Assembly: GCF_029081005.1 (NCBI RefSeq)
Contig: NZ_JAJQTQ010000005.1
Coordinates: 62,001 to 126,000, forward strand
DNA from: Halomonas elongata
Lineage (GTDB): Bacteria; Pseudomonadota; Gammaproteobacteria; Pseudomonadales; Halomonadaceae
Length of the DNA: 64,000 nucleotides
Direction: 5' to 3'
Of the stretch, positions 41,397 through 63,431 are shown one piece after another. The notes under the pieces are model-generated. The model saw only the letters and a program-made list of their open reading frames with translations, was not told the DNA's origin and ran no database searches. Position 1 is the first letter of the stretch. The number at the start of each line of letters is the position of its first letter. The position numbers and the translations under genes are program-made.

Positions 41397-41777
<381 letters not shown>

Positions 41778-41778
<1 letters not shown>

Positions 41779-41919
41779 GAGGGTGTTTACAAAAGTCACG
41801 AGCGACGGCCAGACAAGGCGAAATTAGGCGAGAATGCGGAGTTTATCCGTACTAAATGAGCACTTCGAGCCGAATTTCAACGCAGTATGGTCGAGCGCAG
41901 TAATTTGTAAACACCCTCT
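41778..41919. repeat. Long palindromic intergenic repeat, copy B
   Basis: A 142-bp element with perfect 16-bp terminal inverted repeats AGAGGGTGTTTACAAA (41778-41793 and 41904-41919). Direct repeats CGAGCG at 41799-41804 and 41892-41897 bracket a 93-bp core (41805-41897). Its first base is the last base of the ferredoxin stop codon. The core also has an imperfect internal stem (GAAATTAGG with CCGAATTTC). It may act as a transcript 3' end. Confidence 0.88.
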
Positions 41920-42150
41920 GAAGAAGGCTCTCGCCTTCCCCCTTGAACAGGCCCGACCACTCGCGACACGGCCAGACTCCCGGCAGCCCCTCGTCGCGGC
42001 GTTCCATCGCCCCTGTCTCCCCCGATTGATTGAGCTAAGCTTGATCCGAGGCAACAACGTCCGGCAAGCCGGTGTTCTGGCAGTCTTTCCATGCCGTCCT
42101 GCAAACACTCTGGCTTCCATGATCGGCGACAAACCACCGAGGAGACATTC

Positions 42151-45246: not shown

Positions 45247-46557
45247 ATGCTCAAGTCACTGTCGCGCCCAGCCGTCAAACTGGTCGAGCGGTATCTCCCT
45301 GACCCTTACATCTTCGTGCTGCTGCTGACGGTGATCGCCGCCGCTGCGGCCATCGCCGTCGAGCGTCAGACACCCCTGGCGGTCCTGCGCTTCTGGGGCG
45401 ACGGGTTCTGGAACCTGCTGTCATTCTCGATGCAGATGCTGCTGGTGCTGGTCACCGGCTTCATGCTGGCCAGCTCGCCCCCCGTCAAGCGCCTGCTGCA
45501 GCGCCTGGCCGGCCTGGCCAACAACGCCGGCGCCGCCATCATCCTGGTGACCCTGGTATCGTTGGCCGCCAGTTGGATCAACTGGGGCTTCGGCCTGGTG
45601 GTGGGCGCCCTGTTCGCCAAGGAACTGGCCCGCCAGATTCGCGTCGACTATCGCCTGCTGGTCGCCAGTGCCTACTCCGGCTTCATCGTCTGGCATGGCG
45701 GGCTGGCCGGCTCGGTGCCCCTGACCATTGCCACCGATGGCCATTTTGCCGCCGAACAGATCGGCGTCATCGGCACCTCCGAGACCATCTTCTCGCTGTT
45801 CAATCTCGGTATCGTGGTGGTGCTGTTCATCGCCATGCCGCTGATCAATCGGATGATGCTGCCCGATGAAAAGGACAGCGTGTACATCGACCCGAGCCTG
45901 CTGGACGAGGAAGAAGAACGTCGCGTCCGCATCACCCGGCCGGCGGAGCGTCTCGAGAACAGCGTGACCCTGGCCTGGCTGGTCGGCATCCCGGGGCTGC
46001 TGTTCCTGCTCGACCACTTCGTGCTGCGCGGCGGCGGCCTCAACCTCAACGTGGTCAACTTCCTCTTCCTGTTCCTGGCCATCGTCCTGCACCGCACGCC
46101 CCGCAGCCTGCTCGAAAGCCTGCACGAAGCGATCAAGGGCGGCGCCGGCATCGTCATCCAGTTTCCCTTCTACGCCGGGATCATGGCGATCATGGTGCAA
46201 TCCGGCCTGGCCGAGACGCTCTCCGGCGCCCTGATCTCGATGGCCTCCGAGGCCTCGCTGCCCTTCTGGAGCTTCATCAGTGCCGGCATCGTCAACATCT
46301 TCGTCCCCTCCGGCGGCGGCCAATGGGCCGTGCAGGCACCGGTCATGCTGCCGGCCGCCGAGGCACTGGGCGTGGACATTCCTCGCATCGCCATGGCCGT
46401 GGCCTGGGGCGACGCCTGGACCAACCTGCTGCAACCCTTCTGGGCCCTGCCGGTCCTCGGCATCGCCGGCCTCAAGGCCAAGGACATCATGGGGTTCTGC
46501 CTTATCCAGCTGCTGCTGACGGGGGTGATCATCGCCGCCGGCCTGACCTGGCTCTAG
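45247..46557 (+). CDS. AtoE-family short-chain fatty acid transporter
   Basis: A 436-residue membrane protein with about 12 helices, of the same length and pattern as AtoE: ASWINWGFGLVVGALFAKELAR near residue 105, WHGGLAGSVPLTIAT near 149, FVPSGGGQWAVQAPVMLPAA near 352 and WGDAWTNLLQPFWALP near 383. It would carry acetoacetate or butyrate-like acids. It stands alone, without ato genes nearby. A short palindromic repeat copy begins 4 bp after its stop. Confidence 0.9.
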   Translation: MLKSLSRPAVKLVERYLPDPYIFVLLLTVIAAAAAIAVERQTPLAVLRFWGDGFWNLLSFSMQMLLVLVTGFMLASSPPVKRLLQRLAGLANNAGAAIILVTLVSLAASWINWGFGLVVGALFAKELARQIRVDYRLLVASAYSGFIVWHGGLAGSVPLTIATDGHFAAEQIGVIGTSETIFSLFNLGIVVVLFIAMPLINRMMLPDEKDSVYIDPSLLDEEEERRVRITRPAERLENSVTLAWLVGIPGLLFLLDHFVLRGGGLNLNVVNFLFLFLAIVLHRTPRSLLESLHEAIKGGAGIVIQFPFYAGIMAIMVQSGLAETLSGALISMASEASLPFWSFISAGIVNIFVPSGGGQWAVQAPVMLPAAEALGVDIPRIAMAVAWGDAWTNLLQPFWALPVLGIAGLKAKDIMGFCLIQLLLTGVIIAAGLTWL

Positions 46558-46560
46558 CCA

Positions 46561-46600
46561 TTGTCTGAAAACTGCCTGCGCTCATCGACTTTTCGGACAG
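46561..46600. repeat. Short palindromic intergenic repeat, type C arms
   Basis: TTGTCTGAAAACT at one end and the complementary ACTTTTCGGACAG region at the other. Read on the minus strand it equals the left arm of copy C up to GAGCG joined to the right arm, with the 93-bp core absent. The single GAGCG is at 46579-46583. It lies 3 bp past the AtoE stop codon. Confidence 0.8.
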
Positions 46601-46619
46601 TGGCCATGGAAGCACTGCG

Positions 46620-46649
46620 CGCCCGCTCCCCTTCAACGGGGGGCGGGCG
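46620..46649. other. GC-rich hairpin upstream of the acyl-CoA thioesterase
   Basis: CGCCCGCTCCCC / GGGGGGCGGGCG with a 6-base loop, one G-T pair. It could end transcription from atoE or sit in the thioesterase leader; no T-run follows. Confidence 0.4.
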
Positions 46650-46685
46650 TTATGCTGTAGGCAACCATCGCAAGAGAACCCGCAA

Positions 46686-47195
46686 ATGACCGAACACGCG
46701 CTACCCGGTCAGCACGAACTCTCCATGACCGTGCTGATGACCCCCGATATGGCCAACTTCAGCGGCAAGGTCCATGGCGGCGCCATCCTCAAGAAACTCG
46801 ACGAGGTCGCCTATGCCTGCGCCAGCCGCTATTCGGGTCACTATGTCGTGACGCTGTCGGTGGACCAGGTGCGCTTCAAGCAGCCGATCCATGTCGGCGA
46901 ACTGGTCACCTTCCTGGCCAGCATCAACCACGTGGGTCGTTCCTCCATGGAGGTCGGCATCAAGGTGGTGGCCGAGGACATCCAGAACAAGTTGATCCGC
47001 CACACCAACAGCTGTTACCTGACCATGGTCGCGGTGGACGAGGCGGGCAAGCCGGCCGGCGTTCCGCCCCTGACGCTGGCGACCCCCGAACAGCGGCTGC
47101 GCCACGAAAAGGCGGCGTTGCGCAAGAAACTGCGCAAGCAGGCCGAGGAAGAAGAGGAGCGGCAGACGCGGGCAGCGCACGACGCCAGGGAGTGA
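46686..47195 (+). CDS. Acyl-CoA thioesterase (hotdog, YciA/BACH type)
   Basis: A 169-residue cytoplasmic thioesterase. The motif ANFSGKVHGGAILKKLDEVAYACAS (near residues 22-46) carries the Asn and Asp/Glu of this class, and VDQVRFKQPIHVGELV is the following strand pair. The C terminus after residue 135 is a highly charged Lys/Glu helix. It hydrolyses short- to medium-chain acyl-CoAs. It converges with the entericidin-like gene across a perfect hairpin. Confidence 0.88.
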   Translation: MTEHALPGQHELSMTVLMTPDMANFSGKVHGGAILKKLDEVAYACASRYSGHYVVTLSVDQVRFKQPIHVGELVTFLASINHVGRSSMEVGIKVVAEDIQNKLIRHTNSCYLTMVAVDEAGKPAGVPPLTLATPEQRLRHEKAALRKKLRKQAEEEEERQTRAAHDARE

Positions 47196-47197
47196 GC

Positions 47198-47221
47198 CAC
47201 GGCCCGGCTTGCCGGGCCGTG
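47198..47221. terminator. Perfect hairpin between convergent genes
   Basis: CACGGCCCGGC-TT-GCCGGGCCGTG, 11-bp arms, 3 bp after the thioesterase stop and 15 bp from the entericidin stop. It probably ends both transcripts, although there is no T-run. Confidence 0.55.
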
Positions 47222-47235
47222 ACGCAGGCAGAGCA

Positions 47236-47367
47236 TCAGGAGGATGAGTCCTGAATGGCCTCACCACCCCGTTCGATGTCCTGACCGACACCTCGCACGG
47301 TATTGCACCCCGCGAGCAGCGACAGAGTGAACAGGGTGATCATCATCAGAGAAAGGGTCCGTTTCAT
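47236..47367 (-). CDS. Entericidin-like small lipoprotein
   Basis: A 43-residue reading frame with a basic start (MKRTLSL), a hydrophobic core and lipobox LLAGC (Cys21). The mature part begins CNTVRGVGQDIERGGEAIQ, very like entericidin A/B (CNTxxGxGxDIxxxGxAI). GGAGAG lies 8 bp upstream of the ATG at 47367. The mature peptide of about 23 residues would be anchored in the outer membrane; entericidins have been linked to programmed lysis and stress response. The second member of the usual A/B pair is not seen here. Confidence 0.88.
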   Translation of the reverse strand: MKRTLSLMMITLFTLSLLAGCNTVRGVGQDIERGGEAIQDSSS

Positions 47368-47570
47368 CGGGCTCTCCTTGTCACGGCTAGGTAGGGGAAA
47401 CGGCTGAGCTCCTGGCGCATTGCCTTCCTCTCAGGGCTTCCGGGACAGGATGCTACTCGTTCAATCTAGCAGGATCGGCGATCCTGCACAGCCCCTCATC
47501 GCCATCCTGTCCCCCTCGCGGCGGGGCTATGGCATGCTGGGCACATACCGACGACGTCAAGGAGCCCTTC

Positions 47571-48002
47571 ATGCCGGATTTCGAACCGGACGCCCGCCTG
47601 GTCGACGACAGCTACCCCGTCACCGAACTCCCGCTCTGTCAGCTGCGACTGATGGACGATGCTCGCTTTCCCTGGCTGGTTCTGGTGCCGCGCCGTGTCG
47701 GCGTTACCGAGGTCATCGAGCTCGACGAGGCCGACCAGCGCCAGTTCTGGCGGGAAGCCACCCTGGTCGGCGGTGTCCTGAAGGCGTGCCTGGCGGGCGA
47801 CAAGCTCAATATCGCCACCCTGGGCAACGTGGTCGCCCAGCTACACCTGCACGTGATCCTGCGCCGCCATGACGACGACGCCTGGCCGGCACCGGTCTGG
47901 GGCCACGGCCAGGCGTCTCCGTATGACCTGGACGGGCTGGCCAGCATTCGCGACCGCTTGCTGGCGGAGATAGAAGCCATCGACTGGGAGGAGCCCGCCT
48001 AG
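47571..48002 (+). CDS. HIT-family nucleotide hydrolase/transferase
   Basis: A 143-residue histidine-triad protein. The triad region is NVVAQLHLHVILR near residue 93 (Q-L-H-L-H instead of H-x-H-x-H, which occurs in several proteobacterial HIT proteins). The N-terminal PRRVGVTEVIELDEADQRQFWREA segment fits this group. Substrates of HIT enzymes include dinucleoside polyphosphates and aminoacyl-adenylates. Start 47571 (MPDFEPD) has AAGGAG upstream. Its 3' end overlaps the convergent lipoprotein gene by 4 bp. Confidence 0.87.
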   Translation: MPDFEPDARLVDDSYPVTELPLCQLRLMDDARFPWLVLVPRRVGVTEVIELDEADQRQFWREATLVGGVLKACLAGDKLNIATLGNVVAQLHLHVILRRHDDDAWPAPVWGHGQASPYDLDGLASIRDRLLAEIEAIDWEEPA

Positions 48003-48364
48003 ATCTCGCTGCCCAATCGCGAGCGCAGCGTCATCATCCACGGCTCGAGCAGGCGCGAGGGAAGAGGACGACCACCACGCAGGGCCGTCATCTCGACACG
48101 ACTGCCTCGTTCTGCCGACGCTACCTCGAGGCGAATCCGGTAGCCGGGCCAGCGCCCGAGCACGGCCTCGACACGCCCCAGGTCGCCATCGGCGTGACGC
48201 ACGACATAGCCCCGCTCCATCAGCAAGGCCATGGATTCATCCAGCACAGCGGCCACCGAGCCCGGCACGGTCCCCGTGACGGGCTCGGCGGGCGCCGGCG
48301 GTGCCATGCTCGCGCAACCTCCCAATGTCAGCATCAGGGCAATTCCCAGCAACCCGCGTCTCAT
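47999..48364 (-). CDS. Small outer-membrane lipoprotein, unknown function
   Basis: A 121-residue protein with a signal peptide and lipobox LTLGGC (Cys17). The mature domain of about 100 residues (two beta-strand-rich halves around ESMALLMERGYVVRHADGDLGRVEAVLG) resembles no family that I recognise. Its ATG overlaps the stop of the upstream lipoprotein gene (ATGA), so the two are coupled. Both carry a segment of the pattern 'RGYVVRHADGDLGRVEA' / 'RDFLVRDTDTSLGLVSA', which suggests that they are related domains. Confidence 0.75.
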   Translation of the reverse strand: MRRGLLGIALMLTLGGCASMAPPAPAEPVTGTVPGSVAAVLDESMALLMERGYVVRHADGDLGRVEAVLGRWPGYRIRLEVASAERGSRVEMTALRGGRPLPSRLLEPWMMTLRSRLGSEI

Positions 48365-48906
48365 GGCGATGTCTCCCCGGCCTCGATGGCATCGCGGAGT
48401 TCATGACAGAAATCCGCGTCACTGGCAGTACGCGACTGTCGCAACTGGCCCCGCCAGTCGTACAGCTGCACGTCCCGTGACACTCTCACCGACTCGCTGC
48501 CGACCACCACCGAGACACGTTCGATCCGGGTCGCTTCCTCGGAGGCCGCCCCTCCACCGCCGAAGCCGATACCCAGTCCCACGCCGGATGACACATGGCC
48601 GCCACTGCCCCCGAACAGAAAGCCACCGAAACGCGGTTGGGGATCGACGGCATTGTGATAGAGCGTGCGTTCGGCACGCTCGGCACTGACCAGCCCCAGC
48701 GAGGTATCGGTATCCCGCACCAGGAAATCCCGGCTCTCCAGCACCTCGACCACGCGGGCCAGTGGCACGGCGCCCTCATTCACCGGCCAGTGGCAGGCAG
48801 CGGCAGGCGCCGGTTCGGCTTCCGGCATCCGGGTCGGCGTCGCCTGACAGCCAACCAGCGCCAGGAACGGGGCCATCAACAGGATCTTCCGGTATCCGCC
48901 AGCCAT
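48361..48906 (-). CDS. Outer-membrane lipoprotein with Gly-rich segment, unknown function
   Basis: A 181-residue protein with lipobox FLALVGC (Cys20). Residues 50-75 hold the RDFLVRDTDTSLGLVSA segment shared with the downstream lipoprotein. A Gly-rich stretch follows (FGGFLFGGSGGHVSSG near 93), then a beta-rich C terminus. Start 48906 (MAGGYRKI) is chosen because it places the signal peptide at the N terminus. It is first of a two-gene lipoprotein operon. No function is proposed. Confidence 0.72.
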   Translation of the reverse strand: MAGGYRKILLMAPFLALVGCQATPTRMPEAEPAPAAACHWPVNEGAVPLARVVEVLESRDFLVRDTDTSLGLVSAERAERTLYHNAVDPQPRFGGFLFGGSGGHVSSGVGLGIGFGGGGAASEEATRIERVSVVVGSESVRVSRDVQLYDWRGQLRQSRTASDADFCHELRDAIEAGETSP

Positions 48907-49021
48907 GCGCGTCTCTCCTTGGTGTCTCCTCGACAGTCTAGCAGCCGCCGACCACTTGAAGCCCCGCCAGGTCGCCCGCATGTCATCAATCAGCGCTATG
49001 GTGGTCATGCAGGAAATTCGC

Positions 49022-49050
49022 TTAACGGCCACCACCCCGACGCCTATACT
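49022..49050 (+). promoter_or_regulatory. Candidate sigma-70 promoter of dps
   Basis: TTAACG (49022-49027), 17-bp spacer, TATACT (49045-49050), 29 bp before the dps ATG; AAGGAGG follows as a strong ribosome-binding site. Confidence 0.6.
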
Positions 49051-49079
49051 GGCCCGACACGAATCAAGGAGGCATTCGC

Positions 49080-49553
49080 ATGAGCGATACCAACAGCATC
49101 GGCCTGCACGAAGGCAGCGCCAGCCAGCTTGCCGAGCGACTCAACGCCCTGCTGGCCAACTATCAGATTTTCTACATGAACGTTCGCGGCTATCACTGGA
49201 ATGTGAAAGGCGAGAACTTCTTCGAGCTGCACACCAAGTTCGAAGAGTTCTATACCGACCTGCTGGTCAAGGTCGACGAGGTCGCCGAACGTATCCTGAC
49301 CCTCGGCCATCAGCCGGTGCACGCCTACAGCGACTACTTCCGCCTCTCCACCATCGAGGAAGAAAAGAGCATCCATGATGGCGTGGCGTGCGTCCGAGGC
49401 GTGGTCAAGGGCTACCAGACGCTGATCGAGCTGCAGCGCGAGATCCTGTCACTGGCTTCCGACGCCGACGACGAGGGCACCGCGTCTCTGGTCAGCGACT
49501 ATATCCGCGAGCAGGAGAAGACGATCTGGATGTTGAACGCCTATCTCGGCTAA
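49080..49553 (+). CDS. dps: Dps-family ferritin-like DNA-protection protein
   Basis: A 157-residue four-helix protein that forms dodecamers, oxidises Fe(II) with H2O2 and stores iron. The inter-subunit ferroxidase motif is visible: YHWNVKGENFFELHTKFEEFY (His38, His51-region, Asp/Glu) and TDLLVKVDEVAERIL. The N-terminal tail is short and not Lys-rich, so direct DNA binding is not assured. It ends in a short palindromic repeat that overlaps its stop codon by one base. Confidence 0.94.
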   Translation: MSDTNSIGLHEGSASQLAERLNALLANYQIFYMNVRGYHWNVKGENFFELHTKFEEFYTDLLVKVDEVAERILTLGHQPVHAYSDYFRLSTIEEEKSIHDGVACVRGVVKGYQTLIELQREILSLASDADDEGTASLVSDYIREQEKTIWMLNAYLG

Positions 49554-49601
49554 GAAGGCGTTTACAACTTACTGCGCTCGTAACACTTGTAAACACCTTC
49601 T
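49553..49601. repeat. Short palindromic intergenic repeat, type B arms
   Basis: 15-bp arms AGAAGGCGTTTACAA / TTGTAAACACCTTCT (one mismatch). Read on the minus strand it is the left arm of copy B through ACGAGCG joined to GCAGTAA and the right arm, with the core absent. The single GAGCG is at 49575-49579 (complement). It lies between convergent dps and rmuC and probably ends both transcripts. Confidence 0.82.
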
Positions 49602-62359: not shown

Positions 62360-62430
62360 TAGCCGCCATCCCTGGCGGCTACCCTGCGGGCCCGTCTAAA
62401 GACGGTTCAAATTCGCTCCTGGCGAATTTG
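62360..62430. repeat. Three consecutive perfect hairpins in the fbpA-TauE gap
   Basis: TAGCCGCCA-TCCC-TGGCGGCTA (62360-62381), CCGTC-TAAA-GACGG (62392-62405) and CAAATTCGC-TCCTG-GCGAATTTG (62408-62430). All are perfect and are only 2-10 bp apart. No coding or known RNA family fits. It may be a repetitive extragenic element or a structured RNA; only one copy is in the window. Confidence 0.6.
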
Positions 62431-62535
62431 TGCGCGGTGCTTGAAAGCTCGCCTAACTAAACGTTATGTCTCGCTTTCTGTGCTCCGTGCGCCTTGCGTT
62501 TCACTATGCTCGGCGATTTATTCAGCGTTTCCCGA

Positions 62536-62557
62536 AACGCCGTATGGGCGAGCGCAG
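62536..62557. repeat. Fragment of the right end of the long repeat
   Basis: 22 bases identical to the right end of the core of copy C (62679-62700), that is AACGCCGTATGGG then CGAGCGCAG. It is preceded by a degenerate stretch from about 62494. It looks like a decayed copy next to copy C. Confidence 0.6.
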
Positions 62558-62584
62558 ATAGCTCTCGGGCAATGCCTGGGCTCT

Positions 62585-62713
62585 GTCCGAAAAGTCGACG
62601 AGCGATGGCCAGACAAGGCAAAAATCGGCGAAAAGACGGAGTTTACGCGCTGTAAATGAGTACTTTGAGCCGATTTTTAACGCCGTATGGGCGAGCGCAG
62701 GCACTTTTCGGAC
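62585..62713. repeat. Long palindromic intergenic repeat, copy C
   Basis: 129 bp with 11-bp perfect terminal inverted repeats GTCCGAAAAGT / ACTTTTCGGAC. CGAGCG direct repeats at 62599-62604 and 62692-62697 bracket a core of 93 bp, the same length as in copy B and about 81% identical to it (18 differences, no gaps). It ends 4 bp from the stop of the leftward TauE/SafE gene. Confidence 0.88.
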
Positions 62714-62717
62714 GAGG

Positions 62718-63431
62718 CTAGTGGGGGATCATCAGCGCCACCCCCGACACCAGCGCAAACAGCAGCACCCCCTGACGCAGCCGGCGAGCATCGAGGCGCT
62801 GGTGCATGACGCGGCTGGCCACGCTGCCGACCAGCAGTGGCGGCAGCAGGTAGAGCGCCCAGCGCAATTGTTCCATACCGACCTTGCCCGCCGAAGCCAG
62901 GATCACCAGCGAGATCAGCTCGCCGACCAGGAAGCAGCAGGCGATGGTCGAGCGCAGCTCCGGGCCGGGGCGGTGCTGGTAGAGCAGCGCCAGCGGCGGG
63001 CCGCCGACGCCGGTGGCGGTCTCGGTCACCCCGGTGATCAGCCCCACCGACATGCAGGCCCCCGCCCTGGGGCGGAACACCGGCGCGAACAGCGCGGCCA
63101 GCACGGCCAGCACCGTCGAGGCGCCGATCAGCTGGTTGAGCCCGTTGGTGCTCATCACCACCAGGATCCACAGCCCCAGGAAGGTCCCCGGCAGTCGGCC
63201 CAGGCCGATCCAGGCGCTGCCCCGCCAGTCGATGGCCTCTCGCTCACGCAGCGCCACATAGAGGTTGAGCGGCAGCATCAGCACCAGCAATGCGACCGGC
63301 AGCAGGTCGGGGCGCAGCAGCCCCATCACCGGGGCAACGATCAACGCGAAGCCGATGCCGATCGCCCCCTGCATGAAGGCGGCGATGGCCGTGGCCGCGG
63401 CGAGGACGGCGTAGACGACGAGCTCACTCAT
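62718..63431 (-). CDS. TSUP-family permease (sulfite exporter TauE/SafE)
   Basis: A 237-residue inner-membrane protein with about eight helices in two repeats: AFMQGAIGIGFALIVAPVMGLLRP near residue 19 and MSVGLITGVTETATGVGGPPLALLYQ near 124. TSUP proteins move sulfite, sulfoacetate or other small anions. The start at 63431 overlaps the 3' end of the amidohydrolase gene by 8 bp, so the two genes are probably coupled; the carried anion may be a substrate or product of that enzyme. Confidence 0.88.
   Translation of the reverse strand: MSELVVYAVLAAATAIAAFMQGAIGIGFALIVAPVMGLLRPDLLPVALLVLMLPLNLYVALREREAIDWRGSAWIGLGRLPGTFLGLWILVVMSTNGLNQLIGASTVLAVLAALFAPVFRPRAGACMSVGLITGVTETATGVGGPPLALLYQHRPGPELRSTIACCFLVGELISLVILASAGKVGMEQLRWALYLLPPLLVGSVASRVMHQRLDARRLRQGVLLFALVSGVALMIPH

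Follow-up and report, generated by a model that had tools for sequence, protein, structure and literature searches.

Core-bearing and core-less hairpins in the window

The short hairpins in the window (the whole 64,000-nt stretch of Halomonas elongata DNA analyzed here) belong to a genome-wide repeat family, more than chance would give. Members of this family are probably MITE-like hairpins whose short forms lost their core by slippage at flanking repeats, repeatedly, with some of them later moving as short elements. The relevant features of the window are as follows.

41405 to 41508, plus strand: third long core, diverged (45.7 bits), immediately 5' of a ferredoxin-like reading frame
41779 to 41918, plus strand: long copy; its type A arms read GAGGGTGTTTACAAA, and TGA flanks it on each side (41776-41778 and 41919-41921)
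41799 to 41900, plus strand: core of the preceding copy, with CGAGCG repeats at 41799-41804 and 41892-41897 (112.4 bits; the copy was in the model)
45655 to 46557, plus strand: 3' portion of the gene for a short-chain fatty acid transporter (PF02667), with a short copy at its end
46557 to 46604, minus strand: short, core-less copy with type C arms, from direct reading and a centre-neutral pattern (52.4 bits with the short model; circular, as the model was partly built from it)
49080 to 49553, plus strand: Dps/ferritin-like gene (PF00210), ending at a short copy
49553 to 49601, minus strand: short, core-less copy with type A arms, from direct reading and arm match (44.7 bits with the short model; likewise circular)
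62536 to 62575, plus strand: right-half remnant of a further copy, adjoining the long copy at 62578
62578 to 62719, plus strand: long copy with type C arms, ends approximate
62599 to 62700, plus strand: core of the preceding copy, with repeats at 62599-62604 and 62692-62697 (111.6 bits; the copy was in the model)

The first short copy (46557-46604) reads GCCATTGTCTGAAAACTGCCTGCGCTCATCGACTTTTCGGACAGTGGC, with a single GAGCG present as CGCTC, and starts after a CTAG at 46554-46557 that includes the TAG stop of the transporter gene. The second (49553-49601) reads AGAAGGCGTTTACAACTTACTGCGCTCGTAACACTTGTAAACACCTTCT, with a single CGAGCG, and lies directly 3' of the TAA stop of the Dps/ferritin-like gene (49551-49553). 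Folded as single-strand DNA, the two were equalled by 4 of 200 and 1 of 200 shuffled sequences. The preliminary description had assigned the arms at 46561 to its copy C type and those at 49553 to its copy B type, and both assignments hold: the former match 62577-62609 over 33 nt (85%), and the latter match the long copy at 41778-41919 over 28 nt (89%) and 27 nt (85%). Both arm types occur with and without the core, as it also claimed (short at 46557 and 49553; long at 62578-62719 and 41779-41918). A hairpin does lie where it placed the first one (46561-46600), but the true span is 46557/8-46604; likewise, its count of one repeat in short and two CGAGCG in long forms stands, except that the first hairpin carries TGAGCG, not CGAGCG. 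The window gave no Rfam match at the gathering score over its whole length, and the stretch 41700-42000 had no hit even at a threshold of E 1.

Distribution of the family and conservation of the core

Forty-five cores were found in the H. elongata genome, and 139 of the 390 genomes surveyed in the order carry the core. The type C inner-arm pattern, with the centre ignored, gave 65 short matches, spread over 36 of the 90 genomes surveyed in the genus (five matches in H. elongata), compared with 5 matches in the 90 genomes, none in H. elongata, when the same pattern was read backwards as a control. Plasmid searches with two queries returned 1 and 9 records, and a phage search with one query returned none.

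The long copies at 41779-41918 and 62578-62719 have CGAGCG at both ends of a core of about 90 nt. This two-copy rule has variants, because only 57 of 104 aligned long cores show exact CGAGCG at both ends; 80 have it exactly on the left, and 59 carry CGAGCGCAG on the right. The core boundary is constant while the arms vary, the core covaries (27 of 31 pairs), and it is oriented relative to gene ends. The diverged core at 41405-41508 has a flank-matched core in genome G022. An integron attC site was considered as an identity for the core; such sites end in GTTRRRY and RYYYAAC, and these motifs were not seen by eye at the core ends of the cores inspected.

Arms resembling transposon ends

Across 81 long copies, the pairing score of a copy's own arms averaged 6.5 (−2.7 when shuffled), and 61 of 81 exceeded the shuffled 95th percentile. 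Arms swapped between copies scored 1.0 on average, and only 19 of the 81 copies lay above the 95th percentile of that control, because subfamilies share arms. Among the 14 type A copies with both ends recognized by pattern, identical TNA flanks were found in 11, the other three having GCA/TCA. Flanks of the CTAG type were seen around type C copies: the short H. elongata copy at C82:259709 has CTAG on its left and an overlapping CTAG on its right, and a short copy in Halomonas sp. ML-15 lies between two CTAG at a site that is unfilled, with a single CTTA, in H. salipaludis. Three of 13 PF01609 loci are insertion sequences (ISs), about 910 bp long, whose ends resemble those of type C. The TNA duplications of type A, and the IS-like ends and CTAG-type flanks of type C, make the arms look like transposon ends, and we therefore class the repeats as MITE-like.

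None of the 13 transposase loci examined held an IS with type A ends, for which the matching IS comes from the literature (ISPsy19, below), and the core gave no match up to E 1 in 11 of the 13 (including the three with type C ends) or in two contig ends. Derivation of the repeats from these ISs is therefore less likely; assignment to the MITE class is unaffected, as MITEs internally unrelated to their IS are known. PF01609 was found in 6 of 10 genomes, with no match in G022, G025, G015 and G010 despite the many cores there, and the two matches in H. elongata are fragments at contig ends. PF13340, considered as the parent IS family, was found in none of four genomes.

The common junction and its exceptions

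About 50 of the 65 short matches share the GAGCG junction, which occurs with arms of several lineages: type A (at 49553), the GAGTGCAG type and other type C. Seven short copies in H. elongata have a single GAGCGCAG-like centre and, on either side of it, the left/right asymmetry of long arms. Letters specific to individual copies are also kept: the short copy at C82:259709 has GAGTGCAG, like the right repeat copy of its subfamily, while that at C94:18327 has CGAA, like the left repeat copy of its long partner in G025. Direct repeats thus lie at the base of an inverted repeat with one copy remaining, as is looked for in slippage deletion at a hairpin. Together with one orthologous pair (below), the shared junction, its several arm lineages and the copy-specific letters support the deletion at a short direct repeat that the preliminary description proposed. 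By arm similarity, the nearest relative of 19 short copies was a long copy in 12 cases, another short copy in six and a tie in one, in an uneven comparison pool (78 long and 19 short, one of the latter, G022:3238756, having another junction).

Core boundaries that vary among copies, named in that description as evidence against its reading, occur in a minority of short copies: the junction differs in 11 of the 65 matches, which represent about nine separate places, and one of these junctions can be read by eye as loss between two CAGACA copies. Repeat length as the sole cause of deletion was rejected. In 19 of 62 long elements the terminal repeat pair ranks with the longest direct repeats and in 43 it does not, 27 of the 62 are without an exact terminal repeat of at least 5 nt, and many long elements hold other direct repeats of 6-8 nt.

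Long and short forms at orthologous sites

Sites were compared across species, with one genome per species, using 145 cores (minus 5 weaker than 27.9 bits and 4 others) and 53 short-model matches up to E 0.062 (minus two reverse-strand duplicates and two others). Seven orthologous sites with both forms were found among the matches listed. The expectation that long and short forms alternate at one locus was borne out across species by one clean pair; the other six mixed sites are not clean. In the clean pair, H. elongata C94:18327 is short and G025 C12:22598 is long, with identical arms and both flanks continuous. The junction is one letter off the prediction, and exchange between neighbors is possible there because a second short copy adjoins C94:18327. 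The pair gives no direction of change, since G022 and G015 carry a different element at this site. Between the two closest species, 15 long-long and 5 short-short shared pairs were found compared with 2 mixed, neither of them a clean swap.

Several candidates were set aside. G025 C58:92160, compared with H. elongata C82:130841 and G015 C8:16464, has a short-copy remnant beside a separate long copy. Other sequence replaces the core where G025 C22:219420 and G015 C16:38285 were set against H. elongata C83:27443 and G022:3381388. At the 3' end of the Dps gene, G022, G025 and G015 have a long element, but its arms differ and its core has diverged, and in G022:3179452 versus G015 C16:251240 the long copy is broken up by another repeat. 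Two more of the seven sites, H. elongata C77:60436 (with G022:167269 and G025 C53:89871) and C33:21736 (with G007 C4:95855), were judged from the flank comparison only, and copies in G051 and G040 (L352/L144) are in opposite orientation. A three-gene tree of the Dps region, which placed G025 with G015, was not used for direction because flank identities elsewhere group G022 with G025 (93.3% versus 88.2-89.9%).

Origin of the short forms

In the explanation that we favor, the outer arms resemble the terminal inverted repeats of IS5-type ISs; type A copies carry a 3-nt TNA duplication, and type C copies sit at CTAG or related sites. The arms enclose a conserved hairpin core whose left base is CGAGCG and whose right base is CGAGCGCAG. 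DNA synthesis would pause where the core hairpin begins, and the nascent strand would slip from one CGAGCG copy to the other, so that one copy and the core are deleted. Such loss would have recurred, affecting several arm lineages, and some of the short copies probably went on to move as short elements. The family itself, its pairing arms, the type A duplications, the common and the minority junctions and the one clean orthologous pair are direct observations; from them we infer that the event was slippage, that it recurred and that IS5-type transposases moved the elements.

An older and separate MITE lineage of short forms, spread by transposition after one or a few deletions, would make the sites a record of insertion instead. 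The filled and unfilled sites of ML-15 and H. salipaludis fit such a history, as do the CTAG flanks of C82:259709, the six short copies nearest another short, and the mostly concordant shared sites of the closest species. We nonetheless regard it as unlikely: short copies carry several arm lineages, for most of those compared (12 of 19) the closest arms are those of a long copy, the junction differs in 11 of 65 matches, and one site differs in form between species. Insertion of a mobile core into short hairpins, with duplication of 5-6 bp (GAGCG), had been offered in the preliminary description and would account for the direct repeat at both core ends. In 20 of 81 cores, arm pairing fails to exceed the 95th percentile of the shuffled control, which also suits insertion; the 12 weakest, however, look interrupted or eroded on reading. 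This scenario is improbable because arms pair in 61 of 81 copies and junctions with partial core need a long precursor. The repeat is, moreover, the same word in nearly all copies, and a site with apparent long forms in two genomes and short forms in two others proved to have other sequence instead of the core. Excision by a dedicated site-specific recombinase, also suggested previously, would explain why one identical junction dominates, but the other junctions in 11 of 65 matches and the small turnover between the closest species make it very improbable.

A further reading, which we consider doubtful, is that the ∼102-nt core acts as a conserved, functional hairpin of RNA or single-stranded DNA that crosses the order by taking on the terminal repeats of many different ISs, with short forms as stripped carriers. 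If so, the CGAGCG boundary would be the joint where core and arms are exchanged. The family raises the question of why a single structured core, most of whose pairs show compensatory changes, persists throughout an order while the ends expected to move it vary so much, and why copies favor one orientation after stop codons. Natural genomes would offer a testable case of hairpin-driven deletion, with dozens of junctions recorded.

Comparison with known repeats

Among the open-licence PMC papers listed for Halomonas with MITEs or repeats, none was recognized as treating the hairpin family. The repeats R0, R2 and R178 of Pseudomonas fluorescens are intergenic hairpins that prefer convergent gene ends; the ends of R0 and R2 match ISs, and R178 is 101 bp long (PMC2718517). 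They resemble the Halomonas repeats by description, and R178 is a candidate counterpart of the core. Correia repeat enclosed elements (CREE) of Neisseria occur in two common lengths, 153-157 and 104-108 bp, the shorter being the “Correia internal deletion” (PMC2649163). Like the Halomonas repeats, they are described as MITE-like, with inverted repeats, a conserved core, a hairpin, target duplication and two lengths, in another host and with TA (sometimes CA) as target (PMC2649163). In contrast to CREE as described there, the Halomonas repeats lose nearly the whole core (about 49 nt are left), and the family combines several arm types on one core with an order-wide range.

Close to the type A arms (GAGGGTGTTTACAAAA, with TNA) is the terminal inverted repeat GAGGGTGTAGACAAAAT of ISPsy19, an IS5 family member with a 3-nt duplication which, unlike the Halomonas hairpins, is a full IS of 1178 bp (PMC3189936). 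MITEPsy1 of Pseudomonas syringae is 100 nt long with 18-nt terminal inverted repeats, inserts at CTAG or YTAA with a 4-nt duplication, and has been shown to transpose (PMC3189936). Its terminal repeat GGAAGGTCTGAAAAAGCC is of similar type to those of the Halomonas repeats, which measure about 140 nt in the long and about 48 nt in the short form. MITEPsy1-like sequences are reported in P. stutzeri, Marinobacter and others (PMC3189936), and such sequences in other genera could include the Halomonas family.

Short copies resemble long copies without the core

A preliminary description held that two short hairpins of the window are long repeat copies that lack the core (the ~102-nt hairpin between the two arms) and carry a single GAGCG instead of two. 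Direct reading confirmed this; one hairpin lies exactly at 49553–49601 as described, while the other, placed at 46561–46600, shifted slightly.

Core-related repeats in the window
46557–46604: short copy (direct reading)
49553–49601: short copy (direct reading)
about 41779–41918: long copy
about 62578–62719: long copy
41405–41508: third, diverged core, just upstream of a ferredoxin-like frame

Arms of short and long copies in the window were 85 to 89% similar over 27 to 33 nt, and the folding of the short hairpins was matched by only 4/200 and 1/200 shuffles. The old core at 41405–41508 has a flank-matched counterpart in the compared Halomonas genome G022. At 62400–62535, the end of another repeat family (ending ATTTATTCAGCGTTTCC) adjoins a core remnant; similar sequence occurs at C83:27443 of the same genome and, in G022 and a second relative, G015, at the C94 site described below.

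Seven short copies from this genome were aligned, each with one GAGCGCAG-like centre and each retaining the long form's unequal inner arms. A model built from these seven (R2), biased by construction toward a GAGCGCAG-like centre, found further short copies in relatives. A centre-neutral pattern (GAAAAGTC N6-36 CASTTTTC), which detects only the inner arms of one arm type (type C) and losses of roughly 70 to 100 nt, matched 65 places, spread over 36 of 90 genomes, against 5 for the pattern read backwards. By reading, 50 of the 65 had the GAGCGCAG junction (52 under a two-difference script rule, which GAGCGATGGCAG and GAGCGAAGGCAG pass, yet these were classed as other junctions by reading); one more had this junction with three differences, 11, from about nine separate places, were joined differently, and three looked like chance. 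The common junction supports the proposed loss of the core at a direct repeat. Among the 11 others, GAGCGATGGCCAGACAG is readable as loss between CAGACA copies and GAGCGAAGGTGATKCAGG is common to G022 and a third relative, G025, at one site.

Distribution and structure of the core

The window covers 62001–126000 of contig C126 in a genome of 4.18 Mb and 170 contigs. This genome has Halomonas as nearest named relatives by its Dps gene (H. eurihalina top at 95%, in a comparison that may omit the genome itself). BLAST with a long copy gave 29 matches in it, the query copy counted. A covariance model of 18 of its cores (R1, from alignment A1) counted, at E up to 0.01, 45 cores here, 34 in G022, 46 in G025 and 20 in G015. 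Genus-wide, with up to 44 candidates scored per genome, at least 83 of 90 genomes had a core match; in 390 genomes drawn evenly across the order, with up to 10 candidates scored per genome and stricter filters, at least 139 genomes and 68 of 142 genera had one. All 17 order-wide loci inspected start with CGAGCG and end in -AGCGCAG, -AGCGCAA or -AGCGTAG. Arms judged by eye were type A in four and type C in three of the seven loci from this genome's own bacterial family; among the ten from outside it, one was type A and nine were neither. Across the order-wide loci (L453–L470) the CGAGCG boundary was constant despite widely differing arms.

Among 104 aligned cores (101 distinct), in an alignment fitted to the structure, 27 of 31 pairs had changed on both sides, 96.8% of cells were paired, and none of 500 shuffles reached any of five covariation measures. 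An 18-row MAFFT alignment, unfitted to the structure but its source, had 16 of 31 pairs changed on both sides, four measures being reached by 0/500 shuffles and one by 11/500. Template switching within imperfect palindromes could produce such paired changes. As for a pairing constraint, the listed strand seems to be the one under it, because in core alignment A3 G·U (230 cells; 134 minus one nearly constant pair) far exceeds A·C (35); a caveat is that the structure prediction used this very strand and that the copies share ancestry. A second hairpin repeat (CAAATCGTCAGG...TGACGATTTGGGCAG...GTGACA..TGTCAC) interrupts the core at nearly the same position in several copies (L011/L018, L019/L021, L064, L071).

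Orientation was scored at 81 intergenic sites in the compared genomes, one per orthologous site, with genes called by a simple program that had been trained on the window. At 57 sites a gene stop was no more than 60 nt from the right end, against 17 sites for the left end (tandem neighbours alone, 38 vs 10). The bias was clear in long copies (46 vs 14) and non-significant in 17 short copies (11 vs 3) and 15 type A copies (10 vs 3). Since the right end is mostly near a gene stop, the gene ending at the element and the paired strand of the core mostly run in opposite (antisense) orientation, which does not fit a simple 3′-UTR role.

Arms that resemble transposon ends

In 11 of 14 long copies type A arms (GAGGGTGTTTACAAA) have identical 3-nt flanks, always TNA (GCA/TCA in the other three). 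They resemble the IS5-family element ISPsy19, which has the TIR GAGGGTGTAGACAAAAT and a 3-nt duplication (PMC3189936). Type C arms (GGTCTGTACGAAAAG and variants) often have CTAG or relatives at their flanks (seen, no count). Three of 13 PF01609 transposase loci are ISs of ~910 bp whose ends resemble GGYTYTGTCYGAAAASTC and whose flanks are CTAG, TTAG or CTAA; from these features we infer them to be IS5-type. MITEPsy1 has CTAG or YTAA as target, with a 4-nt duplication (PMC3189936). A search of 11 of the 13 transposase loci, these three among them, and of two contig ends bearing such an IS did not find the core. Several contigs of this genome (L089, L092, L093, L094) end inside an IS whose copies have ends GGTTTTGTCCGAAAAGTCG and lie at CTAG. 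A short copy in Halomonas sp. ML-15 lies between two CTAG where H. salipaludis has a single CTTA (flanks 84% identical). Judged from sequence, the repeats are MITE-like elements, because they combine IS-like arms, target-type flanks and this filled/unfilled pair.

Long and short copies at the same site

When 185 elements (136 long and 49 short) from five genomes were compared by their flanks, 71 pairs matched, of which 37 were long-long, 17 long-short and 17 short-short. The 17 long-short pairs collapse into seven sites, with clean alternation at one only: C94:18327 of this genome is short and C12:22598 of G025 long, with identical arms and both flanks continuous. The short junction reads CGAAAGCAG, where slippage retaining the left copy would give CGAACGCAG. 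A second short copy adjoins this site in both species, and exchange between neighbours is therefore possible. Four further mixed sites, when aligned, proved nested, replaced, interrupted or of differing arm type and thus no clean swap; the last two were dropped as clean pairs from the flank-comparison listing alone. Between the two closest genomes, G022 and G025 (mean flank identity 93.3%), both copies were long in 15 pairs and short in 5, and 2 pairs were mixed; as mixed pairs are so few and neither is clean, the long-to-short change is rare and no switch.

At the 46561 site, G022 has only the left half of the element. This is readable as loss between two CTGCGC copies, the first inside the element and the second beyond it, and likewise a deletion at a short repeat. 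G025 and G015 lack such an element at this site. At the site of 49553, all three (L099–L101) have a long element with other arms (GGAAGCACTGATTTAT) and a diverged core right after the same dps stop codon.

Proposed core loss and relation to known elements

Short forms recur with arms of type A, of the GAGTGCAG type and of further type C kinds, and by arms 12 of 19 shorts were nearest to a long copy and six to another short, with one tie. In the consensus fold the two repeat copies face each other at the core base, because the left repeat's GCG pairs with CGC at the right repeat, and slippage deletions occur in such a layout, with direct repeats at a hairpin base (PMC4134008). Against slippage, the terminal pair ranks with the longest direct repeats of the element in 19 of 62 long elements and does not in 43, and in 27 of the 62 no exact repeat of at least 5 nt is present at the ends; a slippage account would have to let geometry outweigh repeat length.

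Slippage at hairpins is established, and Correia elements too come in two lengths, with an internal deletion (PMC2649163). No description of the core itself was found in Rfam or in the literature listings and passages searched. Pseudomonas MITEs with such ends are known, and the similar sequences that the MITEPsy1 authors cite in other genera may include this family (PMC3189936). Compared with these systems, the deletion itself is ordinary; what is out of the ordinary is a covarying core that extends across the order under varied ends.
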